Shown: positions 1 through 29,680 of the stretch, in pieces
How the letters are laid out: every line of letters starts with the position of its first letter
Position numbering within the stretch: the stretch's first letter is position 1
NCBI GenBank assembly: GCA_947258515.1
Contig: CAMYIO010000030.1
Coordinates: 1-38,855, forward strand
DNA: 38,855 bases
Reading direction: 5' to 3'
Source of the DNA: an uncultured Ectothiorhodospiraceae bacterium
GTDB lineage: Bacteria > Pseudomonadota > Gammaproteobacteria > UBA9214
The notes under the pieces: model-generated
Databases searched by the model: none
The model's input: only the letters and a program-made list of their open reading frames with translations
What the model was told of the DNA's origin: nothing
Position numbers and translations under genes: made by a program

Positions 1-1
1 C

Positions 2-511
2 AGTGCCATGGCCTATGAATATTCAGATACAGTCGACCTGTTCAGGAATGCCGGTGACAGCAGCTGGTTCGTTGACAACAGCTACGGCTACGCCGTCTTT
101 CCGACCATCGGCAAGGCGGGATTTGTTGTCGGTGGCGCACACGGCAAGGGACGCGTCTATGCCGAGGGTAAACACACGGGCGACACCGCCGTGACCCAGT
201 TGAGTGTCGGATTCCAGCTGGGTGCTCAAGGCTTTAGCGAAATCATCTTTTTCGAGGACAAGCGTGCCTATGATGAATTCACCAGTGGCAACTTCGAGTT
301 CAGTGCCGATGCCACGGCCGTGGCGATCACTGCCGCTGCAACCGCATCAGCTGGCTCTACCGGCAGCTCTGCCGGTGCCAGTGGTGGCAAGAAAGACGCC
401 ACCACCAAAGGCTCCTACCACAAGGGCATGGCGACCTTTACCGTGACAAAGGGTGGCCTGATGTACGAGGCCGTGCTTGCCGGACAGAAGTTCTCCTACA
501 CCGCGAAGTAA
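2..511 (+). CDS. SYLF (Ysc84-type) lipid-binding domain protein, 5' end missing
   Basis: The reading frame is already open at the left edge, so this is the C-terminal part (about 169 residues) of a longer gene. The stretch YGYAVFPTIGKAGFVVGGAHGKG and the following GFQLGAQGFSEIIFF are typical of the SYLF domain, known from yeast Ysc84 and many bacterial periplasmic or lipid-binding proteins. Full bacterial members usually begin with a signal peptide and 30-50 further residues; these would lie upstream. Around residues 110-130 there is a low-complexity insert rich in Ala, Ser, Gly and Thr just before the final beta strands (FTVTKGGLMYEAVLAGQKF). The first ATG in view (position 8) is probably internal because the domain is already under way there. 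The exact role of bacterial SYLF proteins is unsettled; binding to membranes or phosphoinositides is known for eukaryotic members only. Confidence 0.85.
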   Translation, partial: SAMAYEYSDTVDLFRNAGDSSWFVDNSYGYAVFPTIGKAGFVVGGAHGKGRVYAEGKHTGDTAVTQLSVGFQLGAQGFSEIIFFEDKRAYDEFTSGNFEFSADATAVAITAAATASAGSTGSSAGASGGKKDATTKGSYHKGMATFTVTKGGLMYEAVLAGQKFSYTAK

Positions 512-536
512 TATTCCAGTAAAAACAGCGGTCGTT

Positions 537-566
537 CCCGGCTGAATCAACCCTGATTCGGCCGGG
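537..566. terminator. Bidirectional hairpin between convergent SYLF gene and lnt
   Basis: A 13-bp stem (537-549 with 554-566, one G-T pair) closes a 4-base loop ACCC. It lies 25 bases after the SYLF stop and 16 bases beyond the lnt stop on the other strand. Read on the minus strand it is followed a little later by a run of five T (GTTTTTAC), so it fits best as the terminator of the miaB-lnt operon. The plus-strand T run is missing. Confidence 0.7.
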
Positions 567-582
567 CAGTCCCGTTCAACAC

Positions 583-2097
583 TCAGGCACCACGCTCACC
601 CGGCAGGTCACTGACCCGCTTGCGGCAGGCAAACCCGCAGAGCAACAGGCAAACCACGCTCAGGACAACGATCGGCACATTACCCATCCGTACATAGGGC
701 GTGGCGCCCTGCATGGGGATCACGGGTCCGGTCACTACCGCAATTTCAAACTGCGGGCTTTGCTGCACAATGCGACCGTCGTGATCGATGATCGCGGAAA
801 TACCGGTATTCGTCGCCCGCAGCATCGGGCGTCCCGTTTCCTTTGCGCGCATGCGCGCCATTTCCAGGTGTTGATGCGGCGCGAGTGAGTCGCCAAACCA
901 GGCATCGTTACTGACGTTCACCAGCATGGCCGCCTCTGGCAGCGCCTTGATGATCTGCTCACCAAACACGACCTCGTAACAGATGGTCGTCGCCACCGGG
1001 TAGCCGGCCGCCTGCAGCAGCGGCTGTGTGTCCGTGCCACTGGAAAAATCGGCATTCGGCACGGCCAGCGCATCCAGGGCATGACCGATCAGCCAGCGCA
1101 TCGGCAGGTATTCACCATAGGGCACCAGGTGCTGCTTGTAATAGAAGGCCTGTTCCCCGCCCAGCGTAATCACCGCGTTGTAGTATTCCCAGCGCTGCCT
1201 GTCCAGCACCGGAATCCCGGTCAGCAGCGAGGCACCGGTTTTCGCCAGTTCCGTTTCCAGGTAGGCGATAAAACCGTCGTTCACCTGGTCATGAAAGGCA
1301 GGAATCGCGGTCTCGGGCCAGATCGTCAGGTCACTGACCTGCGAGGTAAAGGTGAGATCCGTGTAGCGACTGAAGGTATTCAGAAGATTTTCCGGCGCCC
1401 ACTTGTCATCCTGGCTGATATTGCCCTGCACCAGGCTCACCTGGATCGCCTCGCCACGCGGCGTGGTCCACTGCACCCGGTCCAGCAGATAGCCCGTTAG
1501 CGGCACCATGACCAGCAAGGCCACACTGGGCAAACGTCGCTGGTTCTTCACGATCGCCAGCAACAGGGCCGGCAACAGCGCCAGCAACCAGCCCGTGCCA
1601 TAGACACCGAGCACGGGTATATAGCCGGCCAGCGGGCTGTCGATCTGGCTGTTGGCGATATTCAGCCATGGAAAGCCGGTAAACAGCCAGCTGCGCAGCC
1701 ACTCGGCGAACACCCAGCCGGCCGGAAAGGCACTCACCAGCACCGGCCAGGACGGTGCGCGACAGAAACGTCCGAGGCAATAACCCAGCAGCGCGGGATA
1801 GAGGCTCAGGACCACGACCAGACCGAGTGTCACGGCGAGGGCACCGGCAACCGGCACATGGCCAAACACGTGGATACTGTTGAATACCCACGTGATACCG
1901 GTGCCAAAAAACCCCAGACCGAACAGGAAGCCGTGACGCAGCGACTGCCGTGGCGTGTCGCGTGACCACTGCTTGAACAGCAGTAACAGCGAGCCGATGA
2001 TGACAGGGTAGTAACCAAACGGTGCAAAGGCCGTGACCGCTGCCGCCCCCGCGAAAAACATCAACAGTCCGCCGAAACGATCCATCAGACCGTTCAC
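583..2097 (-). CDS. lnt: Apolipoprotein N-acyltransferase
   Basis: Lnt transfers the third acyl chain onto the N-terminal cysteine of lipoproteins in the inner membrane, the last step of lipoprotein maturation. The 504-residue protein has the usual make-up: several hydrophobic segments in the first ~200 residues, then a nitrilase-type domain, then a last membrane helix near residue 475. The catalytic triad is visible: E262 in WPETAIPAF, K321 in YYKQHLVPYGEYLP and C373 in TICYEVVFGE. These correspond to E267, K335 and C387 of the E. coli enzyme. The start codon is GTG at 2097 and overlaps the corC stop by 4 bases (GTGA), which suggests translational coupling. An ATG four codons further in is an alternative. 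It is the last gene of the operon. Confidence 0.96.
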   Translation of the reverse strand: MNGLMDRFGGLLMFFAGAAAVTAFAPFGYYPVIIGSLLLLFKQWSRDTPRQSLRHGFLFGLGFFGTGITWVFNSIHVFGHVPVAGALAVTLGLVVVLSLYPALLGYCLGRFCRAPSWPVLVSAFPAGWVFAEWLRSWLFTGFPWLNIANSQIDSPLAGYIPVLGVYGTGWLLALLPALLLAIVKNQRRLPSVALLVMVPLTGYLLDRVQWTTPRGEAIQVSLVQGNISQDDKWAPENLLNTFSRYTDLTFTSQVSDLTIWPETAIPAFHDQVNDGFIAYLETELAKTGASLLTGIPVLDRQRWEYYNAVITLGGEQAFYYKQHLVPYGEYLPMRWLIGHALDALAVPNADFSSGTDTQPLLQAAGYPVATTICYEVVFGEQIIKALPEAAMLVNVSNDAWFGDSLAPHQHLEMARMRAKETGRPMLRATNTGISAIIDHDGRIVQQSPQFEIAVVTGPVIPMQGATPYVRMGNVPIVVLSVVCLLLCGFACRKRVSDLPGERGA

Positions 2098-2978
2098 ACG
2101 TCGCTTGCTGCGGGTTCGACCGTGCGTTCGACAGTTTCAGGTAACAGGGTGAGTTGCAGCATGTGGACACGACGACTGTCGGCACGCAGGATCTTGAACA
2201 ACAGGTTGCCGATGACGACCCGTTCTCCCCGCTTCGGCAGGTGTCCGATCTCGTGTACCACCAGGCCACCGATGGTGTCGAATTCTTCATCGGAAAGTGA
2301 CAGCTTGAAATACTCGTTGAAGTCCTCGACCGGTGTCAGCGCCTTGATGGTGTAATGGACTTCACTGTGCTTGCGGATGGTGTCCTCTTCCTCGACATCA
2401 TGCTCGTCTTCAATTTCGCCGACAATCTGCTCCAGCACATCTTCAATCGTGACCATTCCGGCGACACTGCCATACTCATCAACCACGATGGCCATGTGAT
2501 TGCGACTGGAGCGAAATTCCTTTAACAGCACATTCAGCCGTTTGCTTTCCGGGACAAAGATTGCCGGGCGCAAAATATTGCGTACGTTCAGCAGGTTGTC
2601 GGTGCGTTCGAAGGCATACAGCAGGAAGTCCTTCGCCAGCAGAATACCGACGACCTCGTCACGGTTATCGCCGATCACCGGAAAACGGGAGTGTCCGGAT
2701 TCGACGATGCGGCGCAGCAGCGCATCGGGACGGGTATCACGCGCCAGCATGACAACCTGGGAACGCGGGATCATGATGTCCCGCACCTGCATATCGTCCA
2801 CCTGCAGCACGCCTTCAAACATGGCGAGCGCATCGCTATCGAACAGACCGGCTTGTTGCTCGGCACGCAGCATTTCCAGCAACTGTTCCTTGTCGGCGGG
2901 CACCCGCGTCAGCGCCTGTTTGATCCCGGATACCCAGGAACGCTTCGCGGGGCCACTGGAAGATTGATCTTTGTTCAT
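2094..2978 (-). CDS. corC: CorC/YbeX CBS-pair protein (Mg/Co homeostasis)
   Basis: A cytosolic 294-residue protein without membrane segments, matching the soluble CorC/YbeX form. Two CBS domains occupy roughly residues 65-190 (the first begins DIMIPRSQVVML, the second ends VDEYGSVAGMVTIEDVLEQIVGEI). A CorC_HlyC domain follows at about 205-285. The family is linked to magnesium/cobalt efflux in Salmonella, and in E. coli ybeX affects rRNA processing; which role applies here is not visible. The gene sits 82 bases after ybeY with no clear Shine-Dalgarno sequence before the ATG. The gap is AT-rich and could carry an internal promoter. It overlaps lnt by 4 bases. Confidence 0.93.
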   Translation of the reverse strand: MNKDQSSSGPAKRSWVSGIKQALTRVPADKEQLLEMLRAEQQAGLFDSDALAMFEGVLQVDDMQVRDIMIPRSQVVMLARDTRPDALLRRIVESGHSRFPVIGDNRDEVVGILLAKDFLLYAFERTDNLLNVRNILRPAIFVPESKRLNVLLKEFRSSRNHMAIVVDEYGSVAGMVTIEDVLEQIVGEIEDEHDVEEEDTIRKHSEVHYTIKALTPVEDFNEYFKLSLSDEEFDTIGGLVVHEIGHLPKRGERVVIGNLLFKILRADSRRVHMLQLTLLPETVERTVEPAASDV

Positions 2979-3060
2979 TAAATATTAGTTAGTTATGCGA
3001 CATTTGTAATACTAACATCACATTCATTGCGGAGTACACTGCAGCAGCACAGATCGCATA

Positions 3061-3537
3061 TCAACGCTCAGATGCGCGGCCCTGATACGGATCCGGGTAA
3101 CCCAGGTTGATCAATAGATCGGTTTCACGGGTCTCCATCTCATGGGCATGAGCGTCGTGCTGATGGTCGTAACCCAGCAGGTGCAATACGCCGTGAACCA
3201 CGATATGCGCCCAGTGCGCATCAAGCGGTTTGTCTTGCGCAACGGCTTCGCTGGCCACCACGGGGGCACAAATCACGATATCGCCCAGCAGAGCGGTGTC
3301 CACGCCGGGGATGCCTTCGTAGGGGAACGACAGCACGTTGGTTGCGCCATCCTTGCCACGGTACTGGCGATTGAGCGCGGTGATTTCCGCTTCATCCACG
3401 ATACGTACCGTCAACTCGGCATCTATTTTATGTTCCGGCAATGCCTGTAATACCCACTGCCTGATGGCATCCTCACCCGGTATGCCTTCAACGGCCATCG
3501 CGAACTGAACATCGACTGTCTGATGTGTATTGCTCAT
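3061..3537 (-). CDS. ybeY: Endoribonuclease YbeY (rRNA maturation factor)
   Basis: YbeY is a small metal-dependent endoribonuclease needed for 3' maturation of 16S rRNA and for ribosome quality control. The zinc-binding signature HGVLHLLGYDH is present, with metal ligands H115, H119 and H125. The length of 158 residues is normal. The ATG at 3537 is preceded by AGGA at a suitable distance. The gene follows ybeZ by 18 bases and precedes corC, the conserved order of this operon in proteobacteria. The acidic ends and central FPYEGIPG segment also fit the family. Confidence 0.95.
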   Translation of the reverse strand: MSNTHQTVDVQFAMAVEGIPGEDAIRQWVLQALPEHKIDAELTVRIVDEAEITALNRQYRGKDGATNVLSFPYEGIPGVDTALLGDIVICAPVVASEAVAQDKPLDAHWAHIVVHGVLHLLGYDHQHDAHAHEMETRETDLLINLGYPDPYQGRASER

Positions 3538-6222: not shown

Positions 6223-9200
6223 TTACTCATAATAATCCGGAAGATTCGTAATATAGTCTGCCGGGGTATCTACCGGTGCTTCTGTCGGGGTACCGGCCGG
6301 GGTACCTGTCAGTGGTTCTGTCGGTGCATCCGCGGGTGTTTCCGATGCAGGTGCCGAGGTCGGCGGGGCATCGGTATATTCGACGGGCTCACCCTCTTCA
6401 TCCATCCACAAATGCCGGACATTGCCGATCAGGCCCGATATGGGACGCGTCAGCCCGCCCAGTACCGCCCCCTTGCCGGCCGTCTCGATGATCTCCGACA
6501 GGTTGGATTCCGATTGTGCCACCGTGCCCCAGAACTTGATGGCCGGCCCTGTCCAGTAGCCATAGACATCGCGTTCATCCTCCAGCAGGTCGAGGTCATA
6601 GAAAATCGCGGCGCCACGGCCACGCAAATTAAGCTGTGATTCCATCTTCAGCGGGCTGTGCAACACGTCAACGCCTTCCTCGTAGCTAATCCCGCCGTTG
6701 GCCGTCATCAGTATTTCCGGACTCTGCACCACGTATTTCCGGATCTCCACATTACCCGATTCATCGCGCACAAAGTGTGCATCAACCTTGTCGTACGGGA
6801 CGGCCTTGATGTAATTGACCAGCCTTGCGACCGCACCCATACCGAATAACCCGGTCGGAACGTAAGAGACACCCTCACCCACGGCGCCGGCAAAATTTGA
6901 ACTCCCTGTGACCAGCGGATCGTTGGGATCAAGCAGGCGGAACACACCGTCGCGGCTCTGCATGCGCATATCAAAGTACAGGTTGTTGCGGTACTGCGCC
7001 ATGTTCGGTGAATTACCGTGGGCATCGACCTTGACGTCAAACAGTCCTTCCGCCGGTGGTATGGACTTGGGATCGAGTTCAGTCAAAAAAGTCGCGAGAT
7101 CGAACCGATCAACACTGGCCTGCATCTCCAGGTTGTAGGGTTCTTCCCCGGGTGTAAAGGTGATGACGGAATTAAGCGCAATGGGACTGTCATGGAATTG
7201 CGCCTTGAAGTCATCGAGAGAGAGCCTGCCAGCCGAGGACTCGGCACGTCCCGTGATGTCATCGACTTCCAGGTAGTCGGTGTAAAAGAGTCGCTTGATA
7301 TTGTAGGTTACATACCGCTTATAGGGCACCACATCCCAGAAGGCCGTCTCGTCCGGGAGTGCCTCTCTGGCCTCCTTTTCAGCGTCAATGGCCGCCTGCT
7401 GTTCCTCGCTGAGTTCCGCCCCGACTTCCCTGGCCGCCCTTGTCCTGGCAACCAGGTTCAGGGTATTGAGGATGTCATTGAGGTAGAACACGCTGCTGTC
7501 GACGCTGACAAAAAGGTCATTTTTCCCGACTTCCTTGTGGACATCCCACAGCTTTAGTTTCAGATCGCTTTCCCCTGACTTGCCGCGCGTGCTGATGGGC
7601 ATGGAAAGGTCGAAAGTGCCATTGTCGTTCAGTTGTCCGCCGACCTGTATCTCCAGGAGTTCCAGCGGCAAGTCATTCCTGCTCTTCAATCCCTGCACAC
7701 GCGTCGTTGAATCGAGTTTGCCGCTGGAATCCAGCGTGGTCACGGAGGTCAACTCACCGGCCGTCAGGCCGTGACCGGGCAGGATCGCTGGCTGATCCAG
7801 CAAGGCGGGCAACTGCATGTTGACATTCGCAGTCAGGGTCTCGACCCTTGTCCTGTCACCCCGGCCTTTCACAATCACATCCACGTTGGCGTCGAGTGCA
7901 GGCTTGCCCCGGTCCTTATCAAACGTAATATTGAATTGTTTTAATTTTGCATGCAGCGTATCGCCCTGCATCACGGTTTCGGAATCCAGCGTCAGGGTGA
8001 AGGATTGCAGCACCTGTTTGTCTCCCGTCTTCAACACTGCGCCCGTCACCCTGAACGGCTCAAGAGTATCGACGCGCAGTGACTTGCCATCCGAGCTGAG
8101 TACCGCCTTGCCGTTGGCATCGGTCAAGCTCAGGCCATTGGCCGCCAGTATTCCGGCAAACGGTTCAGGGGTAAGATTCGCCACCGTCAGGGTCACCTTG
8201 CCGCGGGCCCGACCCAGTTCGGATTGTCTGCTACTCAAGTTTGTGCGCACACGGACGTTTGAATCGGCCTGCAGTGATATACGCGGCTGCTTGTCCGCAT
8301 AGCGCAGGTTCGCTGACAGGCGGCTCAGGTCGATACTGGATTCACCCTGTGCCAGCTTGTAATTCGCATCCAGCCACAGCGGCGCCTCTATGGAACCCTG
8401 CAACGCCCTGGCAACAACCGGCTGTCGGGAAAATGCCTGCACATCCATATCCAGTTGACCCTCGGCCAGCAGGGGTTTGTCCGCCTCACCCGGCAGGGTC
8501 AGCTCACCGCTGCCTGCCAGCAGCTGTTGCTTCTGGCCAGTGACAGTGAGGTCCTTGTAAGTGATGCCGGTGCCCTCCGGCGCCAGGCGAATGCTGGGCC
8601 GCACGCTGATAGCAACATCCTTGAGCATCGGCCCGTCCGGGCCGGTGATGGTGACATGACTCAGCCTGACCGGTTTAGCCGCGGCCAGGGTAGCGACCCC
8701 CTGCCCCTGCGCCGCCAGTGTAAAATCAGCAGACTGTAGCTGGCCCTTTAAGGTGGTATTCGGCACAAAGGCGGAGAACCAGCCAAGCTGGATGTCACTG
8801 ATATTGACTGTTGCCAGCTGCCCTTTCTCGTTTGCTATGCGGGTACCTGCCGCCGAGCTTTTCATGACCAGTGGTTGCAGCAGGTCCAGATGCAGCAGGC
8901 GGGTCTTCTTGTCCAGCAGCAGGTTTGCATCCAGCGCATTCACACGCACGGCATCGGCCTGCTGCTGGATCGCCGTCTTGAAATCCAGTGAAAGCTTTTT
9001 CGGCAGGGTCTGTCTGCCCGACGGCTCAATGGCCAGCAGCTCCACCAGCCTGTGCAAATCCAGGTCAGCCGTGGCCCGTGCATTGATGGCACCCGGTTGC
9101 TCTGCCAGCGGCACGGTGGCCGTCATGTCTGCCGTCGCCACGGTTCCCTTGCCCGCATCGACCAGAAGCTCTTGCAGCGAGACATCCAGCGCGTCGCCGT

Positions 9201-10686
9201 GGTAGCTGACACGTGGCAGCACACTCAGATTGAGTCCCTCGACGACCACCTGCTCGCCCTGCAACAGGGTAAATCCTGTCACCTTGAGTGGCTTGACAGG
9301 AATGACGTGGATAGAACCCGCCGTGTCCGTGGTAATCTCGAACGCCCCTGTCAGTGTACCTTCCATGAGTTCGTGCTCGGGCAGCAAGATGTCAAACCAG
9401 GCCAGCGGCACCTCGGGCAACTCGAAGGCCAGCAGGGTGTTCTCCTGATGCATGAAGGCATCGATATCCTGCAGGGGGATATCCAGATCTTGCGGCAGAC
9501 TGGAAGTCAGTGGCCGGGTCGTCGTTTCATCGGTCATGCCCGAATAAATTGTCTCGACGCGCAAGCGTATACCAGGCAACAGCGACAAACGGAAGTTATT
9601 CTCGAGACGCAGCAACTCGGGGAGCTTTTCGTTGCTGTGCGTTTCCTTGATCTGCTTGACCAGCAGATTGCTGATGACGGTGATGTGTCCGGTGGTGTCC
9701 GCGATATTAAAAAGCAGGTCGCCGCTGAGTACTTCTTCCGTGGGTGGTATGACCGTACCTTTTACATAGCGCTGCAGCAATCGCTCGTTCGCCGTTATCC
9801 GGTAAGCACCGTCAAACACACCACTGTTGCCGTCATAGCGGCCTTCAAGCGTCAACTCGGAACGCTGCTTGCCGTCCGCATCGAGCTGCAGGTTTACAAG
9901 CTGCCACGTCTCTGGCGCATAGTGAGGCTCTTCGCCTGCGGCCTGCAGCGACAATTGCCCGGCTTCAGTTAGTAGCGCCGGGGTCAGCCGCAGTATCACC
10001 TGGGCACTTTCGGTCTCCGGCAGGGCCGCCAGTGCCGCGTCAATATCAAACACGGTTTCTATTGAATTGAAGCGGCCGCGTGTCAGCTGGTTGAGGACAA
10101 GACGGCCATCAAGGGCAATCAGCTCGTCCTCCTTGCCGGTATGGAAGTGCGCCTTCATATTGATAGCGCCCGTTGTTTTCGGCTTGATGCCACCACCGCT
10201 TATGCTGGCCGAGACTGATTGCTGATCCGGCAGTATTACCTCTGCATTGATATCCACATCCTGCAGGGTGTAACCGAGCCCGTGTTGCAACACCGCCAGC
10301 ACACCGGGAAAAATCCCGCCATCGGGTTCCGGTTCCGGCTTCTCCGGGGGATTGAATTCGCTCAGGTCAACATGGACATCCTGCAGTGCAAGCGTCTTGA
10401 TATTGGCATTCAGCAACAGCAGTGATGACAGACAGTAGCGCAACGTTCCCTGTTCCAGCTCGAAATGTCCGCCCGCATACTCCACGGCAACCTTGTTAAG
10501 GTGCAGTGACCAGGGGGTAAAGTGAATGTATTCAAGCTGCAGCGAATCAACCAGCGGGCCCACATGCTTGAGCAGCATCTTTTTCTGGAAGGCGGGATTA
10601 AAGACCAGCGCGGACAACACGGCAAGAACTAACAGCAGGCCAATCGGGATATAAAACCGGGGTCGTTTTAAATCAGCGAGCTGCAT
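6223..10686 (-). CDS. Giant AsmA-like envelope protein
   Basis: A 1487-residue protein with one N-terminal membrane anchor (about residues 12-30, FYIPIGLLLVLAVLSALVF) and a very long beta-rich periplasmic part. Repeated short patterns such as DVHVDLSEF, LLLNANIKTL and ATADLDLHRL are typical of the AsmA/YhdP/TamB group. The last 300 residues resemble the AsmA-like C-terminal region (LYFDMRMQSRDGVFRLLD, GPAIKFWGTV). Members are envelope proteins and several are thought to form hydrophobic grooves that carry phospholipids to the outer membrane; that role here is inference. It ends with a Pro/Thr/Ala-rich tail (about 45 residues, repeats of TPAG/TPTEAP/DTPAD) that looks unstructured. It stands alone, with its own candidate promoter near 10790. 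Confidence 0.8.
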   Translation of the reverse strand: MQLADLKRPRFYIPIGLLLVLAVLSALVFNPAFQKKMLLKHVGPLVDSLQLEYIHFTPWSLHLNKVAVEYAGGHFELEQGTLRYCLSSLLLLNANIKTLALQDVHVDLSEFNPPEKPEPEPDGGIFPGVLAVLQHGLGYTLQDVDINAEVILPDQQSVSASISGGGIKPKTTGAINMKAHFHTGKEDELIALDGRLVLNQLTRGRFNSIETVFDIDAALAALPETESAQVILRLTPALLTEAGQLSLQAAGEEPHYAPETWQLVNLQLDADGKQRSELTLEGRYDGNSGVFDGAYRITANERLLQRYVKGTVIPPTEEVLSGDLLFNIADTTGHITVISNLLVKQIKETHSNEKLPELLRLENNFRLSLLPGIRLRVETIYSGMTDETTTRPLTSSLPQDLDIPLQDIDAFMHQENTLLAFELPEVPLAWFDILLPEHELMEGTLTGAFEITTDTAGSIHVIPVKPLKVTGFTLLQGEQVVVEGLNLSVLPRVSYHGDALDVSLQELLVDAGKGTVATADMTATVPLAEQPGAINARATADLDLHRLVELLAIEPSGRQTLPKKLSLDFKTAIQQQADAVRVNALDANLLLDKKTRLLHLDLLQPLVMKSSAAGTRIANEKGQLATVNISDIQLGWFSAFVPNTTLKGQLQSADFTLAAQGQGVATLAAAKPVRLSHVTITGPDGPMLKDVAISVRPSIRLAPEGTGITYKDLTVTGQKQQLLAGSGELTLPGEADKPLLAEGQLDMDVQAFSRQPVVARALQGSIEAPLWLDANYKLAQGESSIDLSRLSANLRYADKQPRISLQADSNVRVRTNLSSRQSELGRARGKVTLTVANLTPEPFAGILAANGLSLTDANGKAVLSSDGKSLRVDTLEPFRVTGAVLKTGDKQVLQSFTLTLDSETVMQGDTLHAKLKQFNITFDKDRGKPALDANVDVIVKGRGDRTRVETLTANVNMQLPALLDQPAILPGHGLTAGELTSVTTLDSSGKLDSTTRVQGLKSRNDLPLELLEIQVGGQLNDNGTFDLSMPISTRGKSGESDLKLKLWDVHKEVGKNDLFVSVDSSVFYLNDILNTLNLVARTRAAREVGAELSEEQQAAIDAEKEAREALPDETAFWDVVPYKRYVTYNIKRLFYTDYLEVDDITGRAESSAGRLSLDDFKAQFHDSPIALNSVITFTPGEEPYNLEMQASVDRFDLATFLTELDPKSIPPAEGLFDVKVDAHGNSPNMAQYRNNLYFDMRMQSRDGVFRLLDPNDPLVTGSSNFAGAVGEGVSYVPTGLFGMGAVARLVNYIKAVPYDKVDAHFVRDESGNVEIRKYVVQSPEILMTANGGISYEEGVDVLHSPLKMESQLNLRGRGAAIFYDLDLLEDERDVYGYWTGPAIKFWGTVAQSESNLSEIIETAGKGAVLGGLTRPISGLIGNVRHLWMDEEGEPVEYTDAPPTSAPASETPADAPTEPLTGTPAGTPTEAPVDTPADYITNLPDYYE

Positions 10687-21438: not shown

Positions 21439-22158
21439 ATGGCAAAAGATTACGCAGATGTAAACAGCAGCGGCAAATGGAACCCAGGCCGTACCAAGGC
21501 ACTGATGGTGATGGTCGTCATTATTACGGCCATTGCCATATGGCTGGTACCGGTCGACGACAAACAGACGCCGCCGTCGCTGCCTGCCATACCGTCTGCG
21601 CCACAGTCGACCGAGTCACTGCCGCTGCCGTCAGCAGCCGGGACTTCAGAATCACTGCCATTACCTTCAGCAGCCGACACCCCGGCGTCAGGGCCATTAC
21701 CGTCAGCAGCCGGGACCTCCGAGTCACTGCCGCTGCCGCCACCACCGGGCGGGATTGCCACCGTCACCAACGGCGGCGACAGGGCACGCGCCTTCATTTA
21801 CAAATTGCGCTCCGACGGTGCACAGCCGGATGCGGACGTGGTCTTCGCCGAGGCAGAGCGCATGCAGGACGAGGGTAACCCGCTCGATGCCTACCTGCTG
21901 TACCGCTTCGCTGCACGCCATGGCCAGGCACAGGCGGCCCTGATCCTCGGCACGCAGGCCGATCCGGCCTATCACACGGCGGCCGGCAGTTATTTGCCCG
22001 ACGCGGAACCGGCGCAGGCCTACAAGTGGTACAACATGGCGGCGACGGCAGGAAGCAAAAAGGCTGCACTGCGTCTGCTGGATCTGCGCAAGCGTGTGCA
22101 ACAGGATGCCGCGGCCGGAGACGAGCAGGCCCGGCGCCTGTTGCTGCAGTGGCAATAA
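21439..22158 (+). CDS. Membrane-anchored Sel1-like repeat protein
   Basis: A 239-residue protein. Residues 21-38 form one membrane helix (ALMVMVVIITAIAIWLV), so the rest is likely periplasmic. Residues 45-105 are a Pro/Ser/Leu-rich linker built of repeats (ESLPLPSAAGTS and variants). The C-terminal ~120 residues contain Sel1/TPR-like helices (AEAERMQDEGNPLDAYLLYRF, AQAYKWYNMAATAGSKKAALRLL). Sel1 repeats usually bind other proteins. It is the first gene of the plus-strand set and lies 20 bases ahead of the vWA protein gene, so the two probably belong to one transcript. The ribosome-binding site is weak (CAGGTG). I know no close named homologue. Confidence 0.8.
   Translation: MAKDYADVNSSGKWNPGRTKALMVMVVIITAIAIWLVPVDDKQTPPSLPAIPSAPQSTESLPLPSAAGTSESLPLPSAADTPASGPLPSAAGTSESLPLPPPPGGIATVTNGGDRARAFIYKLRSDGAQPDADVVFAEAERMQDEGNPLDAYLLYRFAARHGQAQAALILGTQADPAYHTAAGSYLPDAEPAQAYKWYNMAATAGSKKAALRLLDLRKRVQQDAAAGDEQARRLLLQWQ
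21613..21737 (+). repeat. In-gene tandem repeat coding a Pro/Ser linker
   Basis: Degenerate units of about 30-42 bases built on GAGTCACTGCCGCTGCCG and TCAGCAGCCGGGACTTC occur three to four times. They keep the reading frame and encode the ESLPLPSAAGTS linker. Such units may change in number between strains. Confidence 0.7.
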
Positions 22159-22178
22159 TTTTCCGGGAGATTGCAATC

Positions 22179-24137
22179 ATGAAGAAACTTTTACTCGCGC
22201 TCGTCATCGCCATCACGCCGCTACCCGGAATGACAGCCGCGCCAGTCGACAATGCTGACCGGCCGTTGCTGATGGCGGGCAAGCACAGCCTTTACCAGCG
22301 GGTGCTGTCGGTGCCCGATGCCCGTCTCGCCAGCGAGGCGGGTGGCAAGCAAGGCGCGACGGTTGTGCCGTTTACCGCCTTCTACGTCTATGCGCGCAGC
22401 GAAAAGGCCGGCAAGCAGTGGATAGAGGTTGGCACGGATCGTTTTGGCAGCCGCGCGGGCTGGTTGTCCGCTGCCGATTGCATCGAGTGGAACCATGGGC
22501 TGACAGCCGCCTTTCGCGATCCGGCAGGGCATGACCGGGTGCTGCTGTTCGAGGACAGCGACTCCCTGCGCGAACTCGCCGGGCAATCCAGTTTGAAGAC
22601 CTATCAACGTCTCTACGCGGAAGCGGCGCAGGGACAACTGTCCGCCGACTCGCCCGTGGTTGCCATTCAGCCACCCGGCTACATCGACGTTCGTGAAGAT
22701 TTCTACCTCGTGCCGATTCACCGCTACGAGGACGTCTACCTGGGGAGCGAGAAGGCACGCCTGCTGCAGGTGTCGAGCGTCCCCCTGGTGAGCGGATCGG
22801 GCAGCCCCGGCAACACCGGCACCGGCAAGCGCGGCTATACCGCGGGACTGGTGTTTGTCGTCGACTCTACCCTGTCGATGCAACCCTACATCGAACGCAC
22901 GCGCGCGGCCGTGAGCACGATCTTCGATACCCTCGGCAAGGCCGACCTGCTGGGACAGATGAGCTTTGGCCTGGTGGCGTATCGCGACAACCTCTCTGCC
23001 GCCCCCGGCCTCGACTACCTGGTGCGTACCTATGTCGACCTCGATGAGGGCCGCAACGCAGCCGGTTTTCTGTCCCGCCTGAAGTCGCTGCGCGACGCCA
23101 GTGTCTCGAGCCGGGACTTCACCGAGGATGCCTATGCCGGTGTGAAACAGGCGATCGAGTCGATCAACTGGGCGGGCCACGACGCCCGCTATATCGTGCT
23201 GGTGACGGATGCCGGTGCGCGTGAGTCCAATGACCCGCTGTCGAGCACCGGCCTGGGTGCCGAGAGTCTGCGGCAAATGGCCCAGCAGAAGGGCATCGCC
23301 ATTTTCGTGCTGCACCTGCTGACGACGGCCACCATGCCCGACCAGGCAGCGGATGCCGAACAGTATCGCCGGCTGGCGGACTTTCCTGGCATCGGCAGCC
23401 TCTACTATGGTGTACCCACCGGCGACGTCCAGGAGTTCGGCAAGGTGCTGGATGCGCTGGCCGGGCAGATTACCGGGCAGGTGCAGATGGCGTCCGCGAA
23501 CAAGGCGGCCCCTGCACCGGTACTGGCAAGTGATAACGCGCAACTGGCCGAACTGCAGGCCAGGGTGGCGAAGCTCGGCTACGCACTGCGCATGAATTAC
23601 CTGCAGAAAACCGGCGATGGCGAGGTGCCTAATGTGTTCAATGCCTGGCTGCTGGACCGCGACTTCCGCGATCCCGCACGCGCCACCCTGGACATCAGGG
23701 TGCTGCTGACCCGCGACCAGCTGTCGGACCTCAGTGAGGTGCTCACACAGGTGCTGGAAGCGGCGGAAGACGGCCTGCTGTCACCGCAGAATTTCCTCAG
23801 CGAATTGCAGAGCCTCGCGGCCACGGCAACGCGTGACCCCGAGTCGCTGGGAGCCACCACGACCAGCACCGCGGGTACAGGCAACAGCCTCGCGGACATG
23901 GGCTTCATGCGCGAGTACATCGAGGACCTGCCCTACACGGGTGAAGTCATGGGTCTGTCGCTGGATGACTGGCAGAGCTGGTCCACGCAACAGCAGATTG
24001 CCTTCCTGCACCGTCTCGAGGAAAAGGTCAGCTATTATCGGGCCCTGCACGACCACACCGATCTCTGGGTCAGCCTGGATGGCGGACCGATCAACGGTGA
24101 TTCCGTTTACCCTGTCGAGCTGGAACAGCTGCCCTGA
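22179..24137 (+). CDS. Secreted von Willebrand A protein, PpkA C-terminal-like
   Basis: The ATG at 22179 follows GGGAGA and opens a signal peptide (MKKLLLALVIAITPLPGMTA), giving 652 residues; the open frame upstream of it only shadows the preceding gene. Residues ~30-200 contain an SH3-like region (VPFTAFYVYARSEKAGKQWIEV). The vWA domain starts near 222 with the metal site D229-S-T-L-S233 (DSTLSMQPY), a DxTxS variant of DxSxS, and continues with VLVTDAGARE. The C-terminal ~170 residues are helical and end DSVYPVELEQLP. The layout resembles the part of type VI PpkA that follows its kinase domain, as far as I recall. No kinase is present here. It overlaps the ABC ATPase gene by one base. Confidence 0.82.
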   Translation: MKKLLLALVIAITPLPGMTAAPVDNADRPLLMAGKHSLYQRVLSVPDARLASEAGGKQGATVVPFTAFYVYARSEKAGKQWIEVGTDRFGSRAGWLSAADCIEWNHGLTAAFRDPAGHDRVLLFEDSDSLRELAGQSSLKTYQRLYAEAAQGQLSADSPVVAIQPPGYIDVREDFYLVPIHRYEDVYLGSEKARLLQVSSVPLVSGSGSPGNTGTGKRGYTAGLVFVVDSTLSMQPYIERTRAAVSTIFDTLGKADLLGQMSFGLVAYRDNLSAAPGLDYLVRTYVDLDEGRNAAGFLSRLKSLRDASVSSRDFTEDAYAGVKQAIESINWAGHDARYIVLVTDAGARESNDPLSSTGLGAESLRQMAQQKGIAIFVLHLLTTATMPDQAADAEQYRRLADFPGIGSLYYGVPTGDVQEFGKVLDALAGQITGQVQMASANKAAPAPVLASDNAQLAELQARVAKLGYALRMNYLQKTGDGEVPNVFNAWLLDRDFRDPARATLDIRVLLTRDQLSDLSEVLTQVLEAAEDGLLSPQNFLSELQSLAATATRDPESLGATTTSTAGTGNSLADMGFMREYIEDLPYTGEVMGLSLDDWQSWSTQQQIAFLHRLEEKVSYYRALHDHTDLWVSLDGGPINGDSVYPVELEQLP

Positions 24138-24928
24138 TGACTGCAGGTTCCCTGCACGACGTGAATACCGAAGCTGCCGCGATTTCTGAACCCAGGCATT
24201 CCACCATCTATCTGCTGCGTGACGTGGTCAAGAACCGTGAGGCGAAAGGTATTGCCTTCCGCCTCAGGGTTCCGCACCTGCATATCAACCGTGGAGAGAA
24301 AATCGCCGTGATTGGTGAGTCCGGCAGCGGCAAATCGACACTGCTGGACATGCTCGCTTTCATCCTGCAACCCTCAACCGCCGGCTCCTTCCGTTTTCGT
24401 CCCGATGAGGATGACATGGAACCCGTCGATGTGGATGCCTGCTGGCAGGCGGACAATCTGAACACCCTTGGCGATATGCGCAAGTGGCATATCGGTTACG
24501 TGATGCAGACCGGCGGCCTGCTTCCCTACCTGTCGGTATATGACAACATCAACCTTTCCCGCAGCGTACTCGGACTGAAACGCGACGGCACGATCGAGCA
24601 CCTCGCCGAGATGCTGGGCATCGCCAACCAGCTGAAGAAACGACCGGACGCCCTGTCCACCGGCGAACGCCAGCGGGTAGCCATCGGCCGTGCACTGGCG
24701 CACCGGCCCGCGATCGTGATCGCGGATGAACCCACCGCATCACTTGACCCGTACGCGGCGGAGAATGTCATTTCACTGTTTCTGGCGCTGGCGGAAGAAT
24801 TCAACAGCACGGTGATCCTGGCCACCCATGCCTGGCGCCACATCAAGGAACTGGGTATGCGTCGACTGTCGCACAGGACCACGCATTCCCAGGACCGCAA
24901 GCTGACCGAAACCGTGGTCCACGGCTGA
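24137..24928 (+). CDS. ABC transporter ATPase, TagT-like
   Basis: A 263-residue ATP-binding subunit. Walker A GESGSGKST is at 60-68, the Q-loop at Q124, the signature at 173-178 reads LSTGER (Thr instead of the first Gly), Walker B IVIADE ends at E198 and the H-loop is H231 (ATHAW). It belongs to the LolD/MacB type that works with FtsX-like permeases. The region between Walker A and the Q-loop carries an unusual insertion (about residues 85-115, DEDDMEPVDVDACWQADNL). The order vWA-ATPase-permease recalls the PpkA/TagT/TagS genes of the threonine phosphorylation pathway that controls some type VI secretion systems. The ATG overlaps the upstream stop (TGATG). Confidence 0.88.
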   Translation: MTAGSLHDVNTEAAAISEPRHSTIYLLRDVVKNREAKGIAFRLRVPHLHINRGEKIAVIGESGSGKSTLLDMLAFILQPSTAGSFRFRPDEDDMEPVDVDACWQADNLNTLGDMRKWHIGYVMQTGGLLPYLSVYDNINLSRSVLGLKRDGTIEHLAEMLGIANQLKKRPDALSTGERQRVAIGRALAHRPAIVIADEPTASLDPYAAENVISLFLALAEEFNSTVILATHAWRHIKELGMRRLSHRTTHSQDRKLTETVVHG

Positions 24929-24931
24929 GCC

Positions 24932-26143
24932 ATGTTCAAAAGTCTCTTCAAGGTGTACCGCCTCGCAACCCGCGACTACCTTCACGAGTGGCAGATGTCG
25001 GTGTGCTTCATGCTCGGACTGGCGGCTGTTCTCGGCCCCATGATGGTGCTGTTCGGCCTCAAGTTCGGCATTGTCGGTGCCATGATGGACCAACTGATCG
25101 AGGACCCCGGCAACCGCGAGATCCGACCCATAGGCAGCGGCCGCTTCGACCAGGCCTGGCTGGAGAGTGTCCGCGGACGGCCGGATGTCGCATTCCTGGT
25201 GCCGCGCACCCGCAGCATTGCAGCGACCATCGAGCTGTCCAGCAGCGCCTCATCCCGCATTGTACCGGTCGAGCTGATTGCCTCCGCCGCCGGCGACCCG
25301 CTGCTCACACCGGGTGAGCCGTTGGCGGATGGCCTCAACCAGCTGGTGCTGTCGCGCAGCACAGCTGAAAAACTGTCGGTGAAGGCCGGGGACACGCTCG
25401 ACGGCAGCCTTGCCCGGCGCTATCGCGGCGAGCAGGAACGGGTACACCTGGAGCTGCGTATCGCGGCGGTCGCACCGGAACGGGCGTTCTCGCGTGACGG
25501 CGCCTTTGTCTCGGTGCAACTGCTTGAGGCACTGGAGGATTTCCGCGACGGGCGGGCGGTACCTGAACTCGGCTGGGGTGGCACGCCGGATTACAGCGAG
25601 CGCAGTTACCCGGGATTCCGGCTGTATGCGCGTTCCATCGATGACGTGGCGGGGCTGCGCGAGGCGTTTGCCGACATCGGCGTCGATGTGCACACCCAGG
25701 TGGCCGGAATCGAGCTGGTGCAACGCATGGACCGAAATCTGACCGCCATCTACTGGGCGATTGCGGTGATTGGCCTGGTGGGGTTCTCGCTCTCGCTCGG
25801 CGCCAGCCTGTGGGCCAACGTCGACCGCAAGCGCAAACAGCTGTCGGTGTTACGCCTGGTGGGATTCCGCACCCGGGACATCGTCTGGTTTCCAATGGTC
25901 CAGTCGCTGTACACCGCCGTCCTGGGCTGGGTGCTGGCCGTGTCCATCTACTATGTAACCGCCAGGATAATCAATGGCATGATGGCCGAGCAAGTGCAAG
26001 CGGGACAACTGGTCTGCCGGTTATTGCCAGTGCATTATGCGATCGCCCTGGGGCTGACCTGCAGTGCCGCCATCCTCGCGGCGTGCCTGGCGGGTATGCG
26101 CTCGGCGCGCATCGAACCCTCCGAGGGCCTGCGTGAACTGTAA
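24932..26143 (+). CDS. FtsX/MacB-type ABC permease, TagS-like
   Basis: A 403-residue inner-membrane protein with one N-terminal helix (about 22-45), a periplasmic domain of some 220 residues, and three C-terminal helices (about 272-292, 325-345, 365-385). This is the standard FtsX-family layout. The last helix is followed by the short tail RSARIEPSEGLREL, also typical. It begins 3 bases after the ATPase stop, so both are translated together. Transporters of this kind usually do not move small solutes but transmit force or extract lipoproteins; a role in envelope signalling is inferred. Pairing with the upstream vWA protein suggests that this protein is its membrane partner. Confidence 0.87.
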   Translation: MFKSLFKVYRLATRDYLHEWQMSVCFMLGLAAVLGPMMVLFGLKFGIVGAMMDQLIEDPGNREIRPIGSGRFDQAWLESVRGRPDVAFLVPRTRSIAATIELSSSASSRIVPVELIASAAGDPLLTPGEPLADGLNQLVLSRSTAEKLSVKAGDTLDGSLARRYRGEQERVHLELRIAAVAPERAFSRDGAFVSVQLLEALEDFRDGRAVPELGWGGTPDYSERSYPGFRLYARSIDDVAGLREAFADIGVDVHTQVAGIELVQRMDRNLTAIYWAIAVIGLVGFSLSLGASLWANVDRKRKQLSVLRLVGFRTRDIVWFPMVQSLYTAVLGWVLAVSIYYVTARIINGMMAEQVQAGQLVCRLLPVHYAIALGLTCSAAILAACLAGMRSARIEPSEGLREL

Positions 26144-26333: not shown

Positions 26334-26723
26334 ATGCATAAATTTCAACGCCCGCTGGCCTGGGTGCTTTCCGTCCTGCTCGTGCTGATGCCCGTCATGA
26401 GTGCTCAGGCGGCCATACTCGATACGGACACACTGATCACAACTACCCGGTCGCAACAATCGATCACCGGTCTGCAACAGCTGCTTGGGCGCGAGGATGC
26501 ACAACAGCAGCTGCTGGCACTCGGCGTCAGCCCGGACCAGGTCAGCGAACGCGTTGCCAACCTGAGTGACAGCGAACTGGCCCGCATCAACCAGGGCATC
26601 GACACCCTGAATGCCGGCGGCGACAGTGTGCTGGGTATCCTGCTGGTGATCTTTATCGTGTTTGTGATCACCGACGTCCTGGGTGCAACGAACATCTTCC
26701 CGTTCATTCACCCGATCAAGTAA
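26334..26723 (+). CDS. PA2779 family protein
   Basis: A 129-residue exported protein. The signal peptide spans residues 1-26 (VLSVLLVLMPVMSAQA). A helical middle follows (QQLLGREDAQQQLLALGVSPDQVSERVANLSD), and a hydrophobic helix near the end (LGILLVIFIVFVITDVLGA). This is the pattern of the PA2779 family, small membrane-anchored periplasmic proteins of unknown function. AAGGAG precedes the ATG at ideal spacing. It lies 6 bases before a PA2778-family gene, the same pairing as in Pseudomonas aeruginosa. Confidence 0.88.
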   Translation: MHKFQRPLAWVLSVLLVLMPVMSAQAAILDTDTLITTTRSQQSITGLQQLLGREDAQQQLLALGVSPDQVSERVANLSDSELARINQGIDTLNAGGDSVLGILLVIFIVFVITDVLGATNIFPFIHPIK

Positions 26724-26729
26724 ACAGTC

Positions 26730-27719
26730 ATGAACTGCACAGCAAATACCCGTCACATGGCGGGTATTTTGCTGTCTGGCATACTATTAATTGGCTGCAG
26801 CAGCGCCCGGCAGACCCGTGCGCTGCTGCAACAGCCGCCCGCGCAACTGCCCGCAGCCACCGAACTGGCTGACACACCTTTCATTCCGCAACAGCGCTAC
26901 CAGTGTGGCCCTGCCGCACTGGCGACCGTGTTGCAGGCACGGGCCATCCCGGTCACCGCGCAGGAACTGGTCGATGCCGTCTACATACCCGCGCTGCAGG
27001 GCAGCCTGCCCGAGGAAATGGCCGCAACGGCACGCCGCCACGGGCTGCTCGCCTACCGCCTGCAACCCGCACTCGCCGATCTGCTGACCGAAATTGCGCA
27101 GGGTAATCCGGTGCTGGTCTACCAGAACCTCGGCCTGTCGTGGCTGCCAAACGGGCATTTCGCCGTGGCCATCGGTTACAGCCTGCCCGACAATGAGCTG
27201 ATATTGCGTTCCGGCACCACGCGGCGCTGGCGTACCACGCTGGCCAGCTTCGAACGGAGCTGGTCACGCGGCGACTACTGGGCGCTGGTTATCCTGCCGC
27301 CCGGTGAACTACCGGCCAGCGCACGGCTGTCTGGCTATCTGCGCGCCAGCCGCGACCTCGAACAGACCGCCGGCAGCGAACGCGCCCTGCCCGCCTATCT
27401 GGCGGCTACCATGCGCTGGCCGGATGAGCCCCTGCCGTGGCTGACGCTGGGCAACAGTTATTACGCGCGCAGCGATTACGCGGCGGCGGAACAGGCCTTC
27501 AGGCAGGCAACCCGCCTTGCACCGCACACACCCGAGGGCTGGAACAATCTGGCCTATGCACTGCTGCAAAACGATTGTCCGCGCCTGGCCCTGGAAGCCG
27601 CGCGTTGCGCCGCAGACATCGCGGGTGATGATGCGCGTTATCTTGAAAGTGTGAATGAAATCCGCCCTGCGGCGCATGGCGCAGACGCGCCACATTGCCA
27701 GGCAATTAACTGCCTGTGA
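26730..27719 (+). CDS. PA2778 family C39-like peptidase lipoprotein with TPR
   Basis: A 329-residue protein. The N-terminus has a good lipobox (LLIGC, C23), so it is likely an outer-membrane lipoprotein. Residues ~48-180 form a C39-peptidase-like domain with the nucleophile C59 in QCGPAAL and H143 in NGHFAVAIGY. The third catalytic residue, Asp before Pro in C39 enzymes, is not evident (the place reads LILRSG), so activity is uncertain. Residues ~220-300 carry TPR helices (PLPWLTLGNSYYARSDYAAAEQAF, APHTPEGWNNLAYALLQ). The substrate is unknown. It partners with the PA2779 protein and may be co-expressed with it. Ribosome-binding signal weak; an ATG nine codons later is possible. Confidence 0.87.
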   Translation: MNCTANTRHMAGILLSGILLIGCSSARQTRALLQQPPAQLPAATELADTPFIPQQRYQCGPAALATVLQARAIPVTAQELVDAVYIPALQGSLPEEMAATARRHGLLAYRLQPALADLLTEIAQGNPVLVYQNLGLSWLPNGHFAVAIGYSLPDNELILRSGTTRRWRTTLASFERSWSRGDYWALVILPPGELPASARLSGYLRASRDLEQTAGSERALPAYLAATMRWPDEPLPWLTLGNSYYARSDYAAAEQAFRQATRLAPHTPEGWNNLAYALLQNDCPRLALEAARCAADIAGDDARYLESVNEIRPAAHGADAPHCQAINCL

Positions 27720-27736: not shown

Positions 27737-29680
27737 TTATTGAGTCCCCTCTTCCATGTGCATGCCCTCGCTCGCAGGAACGAAGGTCTTTTGCAGGGCC
27801 GCATTCACATGGCCGGCCATGAGGTCGATGCGGGCATAGTGCTTCTCTGTGAGCTGTTCGCCCAGCAACGCCTTCTGCTCTTCCAGTACCGCCAGAATAT
27901 CCGCGCGCATTTCCTCACGGTTGAGCACTTCATCCAGCTCCACCAGTGCCTTGTCGACGGTAAACCAGGTAATCAGTCCGGCAGTCACACCGCAGAGAAT
28001 AGCCAGCGGCCCGGTCGGCGCACAGACCGCGGTACCGACACCGGCTGACAACAGCGTCGATGATCCCTTCTTGGCAAGTGTCTTGGTGGCCAGTGCCGCG
28101 CCGGTCTGGAATGATTTCTTGGCCGCCACCTTGCCAACCACGGCTGCGGTGGTCTTGCTGGCCAGCGCCTTGCTGGCAACGAGTCCCGCACCGATGCCAC
28201 TGGTCGCCGCCACCGAAGCCCTGAGCGTGTCGTGATCCAGCTCCGACAGGGGCGCGACTGACAGCGTGCCGATGTCGCAGCTTGCACTGGCCAGTTGCTG
28301 TCCGAGTTGCGGCGTCAGCTGCGCAAAGCGGTCGGTCGTTTTGTGTTCAATCTCGTGATCAAGGGTGTCGAGTTGTGCATCAAAATCACTGTTCGCAAAC
28401 AGGTATTTCTCGAGCTGCTCGCGCATGGTGGCGGCCACATCGGCCGTAAACACGGCCGCCAGCCGCTGGTATTCACCTAACACCGTAAAATACCAGTCAA
28501 GGTAATGATCAACGCCCTGTTCGATGTCGATGAACATCGTATCAAGTCCCTGACCCACTTCTTCATCAACAGCGTGCATTGCCTGCCTGCGTTCGGCCGC
28601 TACACCAGCGTCCAGCCGTGCGCGTAACCGGTCGCGACTCGCAGCATCCTGCTTGCAGGGATCTATCAACGGCGCTGCATCATCACCGGGCTCAAAAATT
28701 GCGGGATCCAGTTCGCTGAGCTTTACTGCCGCGTAAAAAAACGGCAGCGCAAGAATGATGATAGTGATAATAAACGACCGCGCCAGGGTACTGCCCGACG
28801 GGTGTCCGTGACGCCGCAGCGCCCGTTTCTCCATGAGGGTGCTGACACCAAGTAACAAGGCCGTCGCCAGCCAGGCCACGGTTGCGGCGCGCAGCAGAAA
28901 GAAACTCCACGCAATCAGTTTCGCGCTCATGTCCGGCAGGTTCGGTATCAGCAGTTGCGAACCATGCCAGGCGAGCGCCTCCACTGCTGCCGCGGCACCG
29001 GCACCCACACCCCAGAGCACGCAACCGGCCTGACGGTAATTATCGAGGTAAACCTGTTCGGCCAGGGTATTCCACGCCAGTTGACGGGTGTCCGTTGCGC
29101 CGACCACGGCAAAGTCGAGCAACATGAACGCCACGGTAAGGACAAGGCCGTTTATCAGGAACAAGGGCCAGCGACGCACTACCGCACCCAAATGCTGTGT
29201 AGCGATGGTGTTGGAGAGTCCGCGTGTGACGGGAACATAGATCAGGGCGAGGAACACACCGTCCGCGGCGAGCGCCAGCCAGTGTGGCGTCGACAGGGGA
29301 GACACGAGGGTGAGCAGCAGCCATGCCAGGCACAGCGACACCATCACCTGGAGAGCCCTGGTCATATTGCCGCTCCAGAACAGTCTTCTGATGCGACTCG
29401 ATGATTGCGTCACGCCACCAAGCACCAGACGCCGGCGAAACAGCAGGTACTCGATGCGGTACTGCCAGATGGGCCAGCACACCAGGCTGACCAGCAGAAA
29501 CACCCCCCAGCACGGTAGCGGCCGGGTGATGCGGGAAATATAAAACAGCACGGCGACGGCAAGCAGCAGCCACAGGCTGTGCGAGACTATGAAGCGCATA
29601 ACCTGCCAGCGAGATGGCCTGCCCGGATCAGCTGTTTGTTGTGGCGTTTGCTGCATGTACGGTGAGACTGTGTAACACAT
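27737..29680 (-). CDS. Unrecognised polytopic membrane protein
   Basis: I do not recognise this 647-residue protein. The first ~340 residues contain about eight hydrophobic segments (for instance LLLAVAVLFYISRI, GVFLLVSLVCWPIW, ALQVMVSLCLAWLLLTLV, SFIITIIILALPFFYAA). Then come ~200 mostly helical soluble residues with many charged positions. Near 530-600 there is an Ala/Gly-rich part that could form paired helices (GIGAGLVASKALASKTTAAVVG, GVGTAVCAPTGPLAILCGV), followed by an acidic helical tail. The start is uncertain: the ATG at 29680 has no ribosome-binding site, and later Met codons (residues 9 and 28) are possible. It begins 31 bases after the 3' end of rnpB on the same strand, so read-through is possible. 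It converges with the PA2778 gene with only 17 bases between stops. Confidence 0.75.
   Translation of the reverse strand: MCYTVSPYMQQTPQQTADPGRPSRWQVMRFIVSHSLWLLLAVAVLFYISRITRPLPCWGVFLLVSLVCWPIWQYRIEYLLFRRRLVLGGVTQSSSRIRRLFWSGNMTRALQVMVSLCLAWLLLTLVSPLSTPHWLALAADGVFLALIYVPVTRGLSNTIATQHLGAVVRRWPLFLINGLVLTVAFMLLDFAVVGATDTRQLAWNTLAEQVYLDNYRQAGCVLWGVGAGAAAAVEALAWHGSQLLIPNLPDMSAKLIAWSFFLLRAATVAWLATALLLGVSTLMEKRALRRHGHPSGSTLARSFIITIIILALPFFYAAVKLSELDPAIFEPGDDAAPLIDPCKQDAASRDRLRARLDAGVAAERRQAMHAVDEEVGQGLDTMFIDIEQGVDHYLDWYFTVLGEYQRLAAVFTADVAATMREQLEKYLFANSDFDAQLDTLDHEIEHKTTDRFAQLTPQLGQQLASASCDIGTLSVAPLSELDHDTLRASVAATSGIGAGLVASKALASKTTAAVVGKVAAKKSFQTGAALATKTLAKKGSSTLLSAGVGTAVCAPTGPLAILCGVTAGLITWFTVDKALVELDEVLNREEMRADILAVLEEQKALLGEQLTEKHYARIDLMAGHVNAALQKTFVPASEGMHMEEGTQ

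Follow-up and report, generated by a model that had tools for sequence, protein, structure and literature searches.

Can a vWA protein, an ABC ATPase and an FtsX permease that recall PpkA, TagT and TagS of type VI secretion (T6SS) form a module of their own when kinase and secretion genes are missing, and what might such a module do? The locus that raises this question lies in the window, the 38,855-nucleotide stretch of DNA analysed here, which lies on contig C30 of a draft genome (3.59 Mb, 269 contigs, 97.9% complete). Four genes in the order anchor-vWA-ABC-FtsX (Table 1) span positions 21439-26143 with spacers of 20, -1 and 3 bases, just as the initial annotation had placed them, and its naming of the last three is borne out by Pfam matches exceeding the curated cut-offs for VWA (residues 224-404, 4.1e-7), ABC_tran (1.6e-26) and FtsX (1.6e-9). 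It had also seen no secretion gene, and Pfam searches of the main ORFs detected neither a kinase nor a secretion gene within the window. Since the homology to the T6SS-linked proteins is full-length, the genes form their own clade, TssB, TagF and SrfB were not found in the genome and selection is purifying, the locus very probably belongs to a genuine clade of the TagTS-PpkA-type module that has no kinase and is independent of T6SS. Taken together with the outward-working complex proposed below, we give this reading as a whole a probability of about 0.5.

Table 1. Positions of the operon, its neighbours and the related loci discussed in the text
Feature	Location	Coordinates	Strand	Description
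Anchor gene	window	21439..22158	+	ORF, 239 aa
vWA protein gene	window	22179..24137	+	ORF, 652 aa counted from ATG at 22179
ABC ATPase gene	window	24137..24928	+	ORF, 263 aa
FtsX permease gene	window	24932..26143	+	ORF, 403 aa
PA2779-family + PA2778-family pair	window	26334-27719		C39-like peptidase plus TPR
Large protein	window	6223-10686		1487 aa
Protein	window	27737-29680	-	647 aa
Soluble Ser/Thr kinase + PP2C phosphatase gene pair	contig C155 (L048)	1441-3115		same draft genome
Second vWA-ATPase-permease copy	G000 contig C226 (L192)	1-3230		same draft genome, partial
Full type B cluster	L080	4005-17999		
Full type B cluster	L112	5950-20547		
Full type B cluster	L111	7144-19405		
Full type B cluster	L113	7461-19268		
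TagR-like FGE protein	L083	4521-6137		Sel1-like C-terminal domain
vWA-family protein	L222 (MN423363.1)	420-2387		~655 aa, Klebsiella plasmid

The likeness to PpkA, TagT and TagS that the initial annotation suggested turned out to be full-length and not confined to the vWA fold. When 249 Pseudomonadaceae genomes, a sample whose family was recognised from a strong OprF match in one genome (G183), were searched with a profile of the window's vWA family, the matches formed two full-length groups, one at 725-760 bits and one of 33 proteins at 522-563 bits. Frames in the second group are nearly all ~1000-1190 residues long, with one divergent copy besides, and these long-frame proteins match at E-values of 1e-156 to 1e-169 with a typical profile coverage of 19-667 of 667. 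Twelve long-frame loci were examined, 11 from the main group and the divergent copy (L171). All twelve carry a kinase motif (Pkinase confirmed by Pfam in three), and all four proteins checked have a transmembrane helix between the kinase and vWA regions. Genes for a homologous ATPase, a homologous permease and an FGE/SUMF1 (TagR-like) protein come next in 11/12, and the T6SS component TssB is encoded ~11-12 kb away in 12/12. Family, architecture and T6SS linkage thus identify these loci as the predicted ppkA-tagT-tagS-tagR arrangement (type A). In P. aeruginosa, PpkA is described as a kinase that spans the membrane and has its vWA domain on the extracellular side (PMC3224232). Compared with TagQRST-PpkA of the H1-type T6SS of Pseudomonas, the window has full-length homologues of the PpkA C-terminus, TagT and TagS in the same order, with 41-49% identity between the ATPases and 42-47% between the permeases. 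However, the kinase half is absent, as annotated: the vWA protein has no Pfam kinase match and begins with its own signal peptide instead. The window further differs by an extra Sel1 anchor, a separate clade, an operon that includes neither a SUMF1 (TagR) gene nor a TagQ counterpart, and a genome in which no T6SS was found, so that on kinase, TagR and T6SS it falls outside that pathway. Among T6SS, TagQRST is reported to be confined to Pseudomonas (PMC6082577); in agreement with this, 20 T6SS (TagF) loci sampled broadly from gammaproteobacteria contained no member of the module family.

Searches of the window's genome detected no TssB and no TagF, absences that are not absolute because the genome is a draft. 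Neither a similarity limited to the vWA fold nor a T6SS locus carrying the missing kinase was encountered. The only protein-kinase match in the genome is a soluble Ser/Thr kinase whose gene adjoins a PP2C phosphatase gene on contig C155; it was rejected as a PpkA orthologue (E=0.016 vs PpkA). The same draft genome contains a second, partial vWA-ATPase-permease copy on contig C226, which is 65-74% identical to that of the window. This copy is either a paralogue or a contaminant contig, and possibly it is partial only through the contig ends.

The vWA-ABC-FtsX core is also found next to srfABC, in a sister system that the initial annotation overlooked. These type B clusters read (SrfA)-SrfB-SrfC-anchor-vWA-ABC-FtsX-SUMF1, often with two small lipoprotein-like genes, and their vWA protein is standalone. 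Their hosts are Pseudomonadaceae and plasmids of Lelliottia, Gluconobacter and Cereibacter, and full clusters occur on chromosomes as well as plasmids (Table 1). L080 and L075 score 1363-1414 bits with the SrfB Pfam model; in the window's genome no SrfB was detected by a search that was weak, as the named control genomes gave no match either. Published work describes srfABC as a virulence operon whose function is unclear. The two systems share the anchor-vWA-ABC-FtsX order, the lack of a kinase and homologous anchor C-terminal domains, whereas the window lacks SrfA/B/C, SUMF1, the two lipoprotein-like genes and the anchor's putative cytosolic domain. TssB was found in 8/14 type B genomes. Matches to the vWA family are also common on Klebsiella plasmids. 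One such protein (L222) is annotated 'Serine/threonine protein kinase', a label that looks inherited from PpkA, since its length fits the kinase-less form.

We thus find the core in three settings: PpkA-TagTSR (A), srfABC (B) and the minimal anchor-vWA-ABC-FtsX operon of the window (C). Many gammaproteobacterial genomes encode relatives of the vWA protein, those of sulphur-oxidising symbionts (Thiodiazotropha and symbionts of tubeworms) as well as other MAGs being examples, and among 369 class-level genomes the profile matches split into long ones covering most of the profile and vWA-only ones below 45 bits. The anchor-vWA-ATPase-permease order recurs in gammaproteobacterial loci with enough flank, and because it is repeated in so many other gammaproteobacteria it goes far beyond what chance would give. 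The type C loci represent nine family-level groups, with a fixed gene order, and none has a kinase motif or Srf or SUMF1 neighbours. Type A and type C are each recovered as one clade in the vWA, FtsX, ABC and concatenated trees (SH-aLRT 97-100), a clade in these unrooted trees being one side of a branch; type B is a single group in the FtsX and ABC trees. TssB was detected in 5/21 type C genomes, always on another contig than the operon. Intermediate loci were also found. L078 and L220 read vWA-ABC-FtsX-SUMF1, and in L083 the anchor-vWA-ABC-FtsX genes are followed by a SUMF1 (TagR-like FGE) protein with a C-terminal domain resembling the anchor's Sel1 part, a natural anchor-TagR fusion. Against the nearest relative, dN/dS reaches 0.27 in the anchor gene and lies at 0.11-0.14 in the other three, indicating that all four genes are under purifying selection.

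The vWA protein comprises the annotated signal peptide, a beta-rich N-terminal domain (~30-110), the vWA domain and a conserved C-terminal region to residue 652. Its MIDAS is intact (D229, T231, S233, D344), and an alignment shows these positions, with T/S at 231, to be common to types A, B and C, as are G94-W95, W104, P179, P585-Y586 and W630 outside the vWA domain. A structure model of low confidence (mean pLDDT 48) has a beta-rich N-terminal segment and a weak vWA/integrin I domain match. A sequence search returned no PDB relatives at E<=0.01.

The anchor consists of an N-terminal tail of ~20 residues, one transmembrane helix (21-39), a Pro/Ser-rich linker and a periplasmic, Sel1-like C-terminal domain (~110-239). 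Taken alone it falls below the Pfam threshold for Sel1 (E=0.13), but 5/22 anchor homologues match Sel1 (best 1.8e-6), and we have kept the Sel1-like label of the initial annotation for this reason. Srf-linked anchors have an N-terminal region of ~140-190 residues, a transmembrane helix at ~140-208 and a Sel1-like C-terminal domain that is homologous to that of the window anchor (hhalign probability 97.5, E 7.4e-12, 92 columns). Nothing corresponding to their N-terminal region exists in the window anchor or in type C. The basic residues preceding the helix and the signal peptide of the partner protein suggest that this region is cytosolic. The type C anchor would then stand in for the membrane-spanning half of PpkA without any cytosolic domain, a feature that the initial annotation had missed, and the slot held by the kinase in type A, or by the cytosolic domain plus SrfABC in type B, would be empty in type C.

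The best NCBIfam matches place the ATPase, a TagT homologue, in the LolD/FtsE/MacB class. The permease, a TagS homologue, has a LolE/LolC- and MacB-like fold. A fold search with its structure model (pLDDT 81) put LolE/LolC on top by E-value (4.6e-17), whereas MacB and YtrEF were equal or higher by TM-score (0.62-0.68), so the fold does not point to Lol alone. Because the model matches LolE/LolC, MacB and YtrEF, the permease-ATPase pair is predicted to be a mechanotransmission-type ABC system. Its permease fold and ATPase class are in common with LolCDE and MacB (type VII, mechanotransmission ABC transporters), but the window has one permease gene, and vWA and Sel1 partners where LolA/LolB or MacA/TolC stand.

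In the explanation that we prefer, the four gene products would make up one inner-membrane/periplasmic complex. FtsX and ABC subunits would form a transporter of the MacB/Lol mechanotransmission class, the secreted vWA protein would be its periplasmic partner and bind a target through the MIDAS metal site, and the Sel1 anchor would keep the vWA protein at the inner membrane. ATP hydrolysis could then drive outward work in the periplasm, for example by loading the vWA protein onto a target (peptidoglycan, outer membrane or lipoprotein) and releasing it again in cycles. We put this outward mechanism close to, but short of, even odds. It is favoured over inward signalling because the short anchor tail leaves no cytosolic output domain. 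At the level of parts, to judge from homology, the set should work like TagTS plus the sensor region of PpkA, and periplasmic work is at least as likely as sensing.

An envelope-stress or contact sensor is the foremost alternative, and we consider it rather unlikely. Here the vWA protein would detect damage or contact, and the permease-ATPase would pass the signal into the cell, through the ATPase or to a cytosolic partner encoded elsewhere, as TagQRST passes it to PpkA. The nearest characterised relative, TagTS-PpkA of P. aeruginosa, is a sensor (PMC6082577, PMC6657622) that helps to detect incoming attack and damage to the membrane (PMC6082577, PMC6657622, PMC10482370), and the vWA protein and permease are full-length homologues of the PpkA C-terminus and TagS. 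However, the operon has no equivalent of TagQ or TagR, without which TssK does not assemble in P. aeruginosa (PMC6657622), and the rest of the genome showed no close TagR-like SUMF1/FGE homologue (BLAST scores of 76 bits at most, vs at least about 230 bits for srf-linked copies). The single protein-kinase match of the genome is no PpkA orthologue, and the missing cytosolic domain of the anchor further weakens any inward-signalling reading.

It is also possible, if doubtful, that the operon encodes a Lol-like machine whose task is to extract or sort a particular lipoprotein or periplasmic cargo, in which case the vWA protein would serve as acceptor or chaperone. The E-value ranking of the permease fold speaks for this, as do LolD and FtsE among the best ATPase family matches, whereas the TM-scores of MacB and YtrEF and the lack of a conserved lipoprotein gene accompanying type C speak against it. 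Genes flanking type C operons are conserved only among near relatives or as housekeeping synteny, and they therefore give no functional clue. A decaying remnant of a T6SS or srf locus, to which the smallest form of the module and the partial copy on contig C226 might point, is very improbable; purifying selection throughout the clade has largely disproved it, and the invariant MIDAS residues and the fixed gene order of one clade in nine family-level groups also speak against it.

Returning to the complex with outward function, a wider picture can be drawn, which we offer tentatively and at less than even odds: one vWA-ABC-FtsX core may have become connected to at least three different set-ups in the cytosol (a T6SS-arming kinase, SrfABC, or nothing), the window clade being an output-free machine of the periplasm that is driven by ATP and has a metal-dependent vWA arm, maybe near the ancestral function. 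With kinase, TagR, TagQ and secretion system all missing, this natural form lays bare the minimal core of a TagTS-type transporter, and it predicts that the vWA protein, permease and ATPase function jointly by themselves. SrfABC may fill the cytosolic output slot of a TagTS-like core, as the kinase does in T6SS. Literature searches found no description of the minimal anchor-vWA-ABC-FtsX form. Host-associated Deltaproteobacteria with srfBC and tag/ppka-like genes, mostly without T6SS, were reported in 2013 (PMC3608642). That report anticipates use of the module independently of T6SS but not the minimal form, and what is new here is the distinct kinase-less clade of a known module.

A scan for sigma-70 promoters and terminators gave matches not above chance, and PADLOC found no specific anti-phage defence match, only generic ATPase matches. 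Two further proteins of the window had no Pfam match, the 1487-aa protein at E<=1e-5 and the 647-aa protein at E<=1. A PA2779-family and PA2778-family pair is encoded directly downstream of the permease gene, and such a pair is also present near the operon in L017, these being the two loci in which it was seen with the operon.
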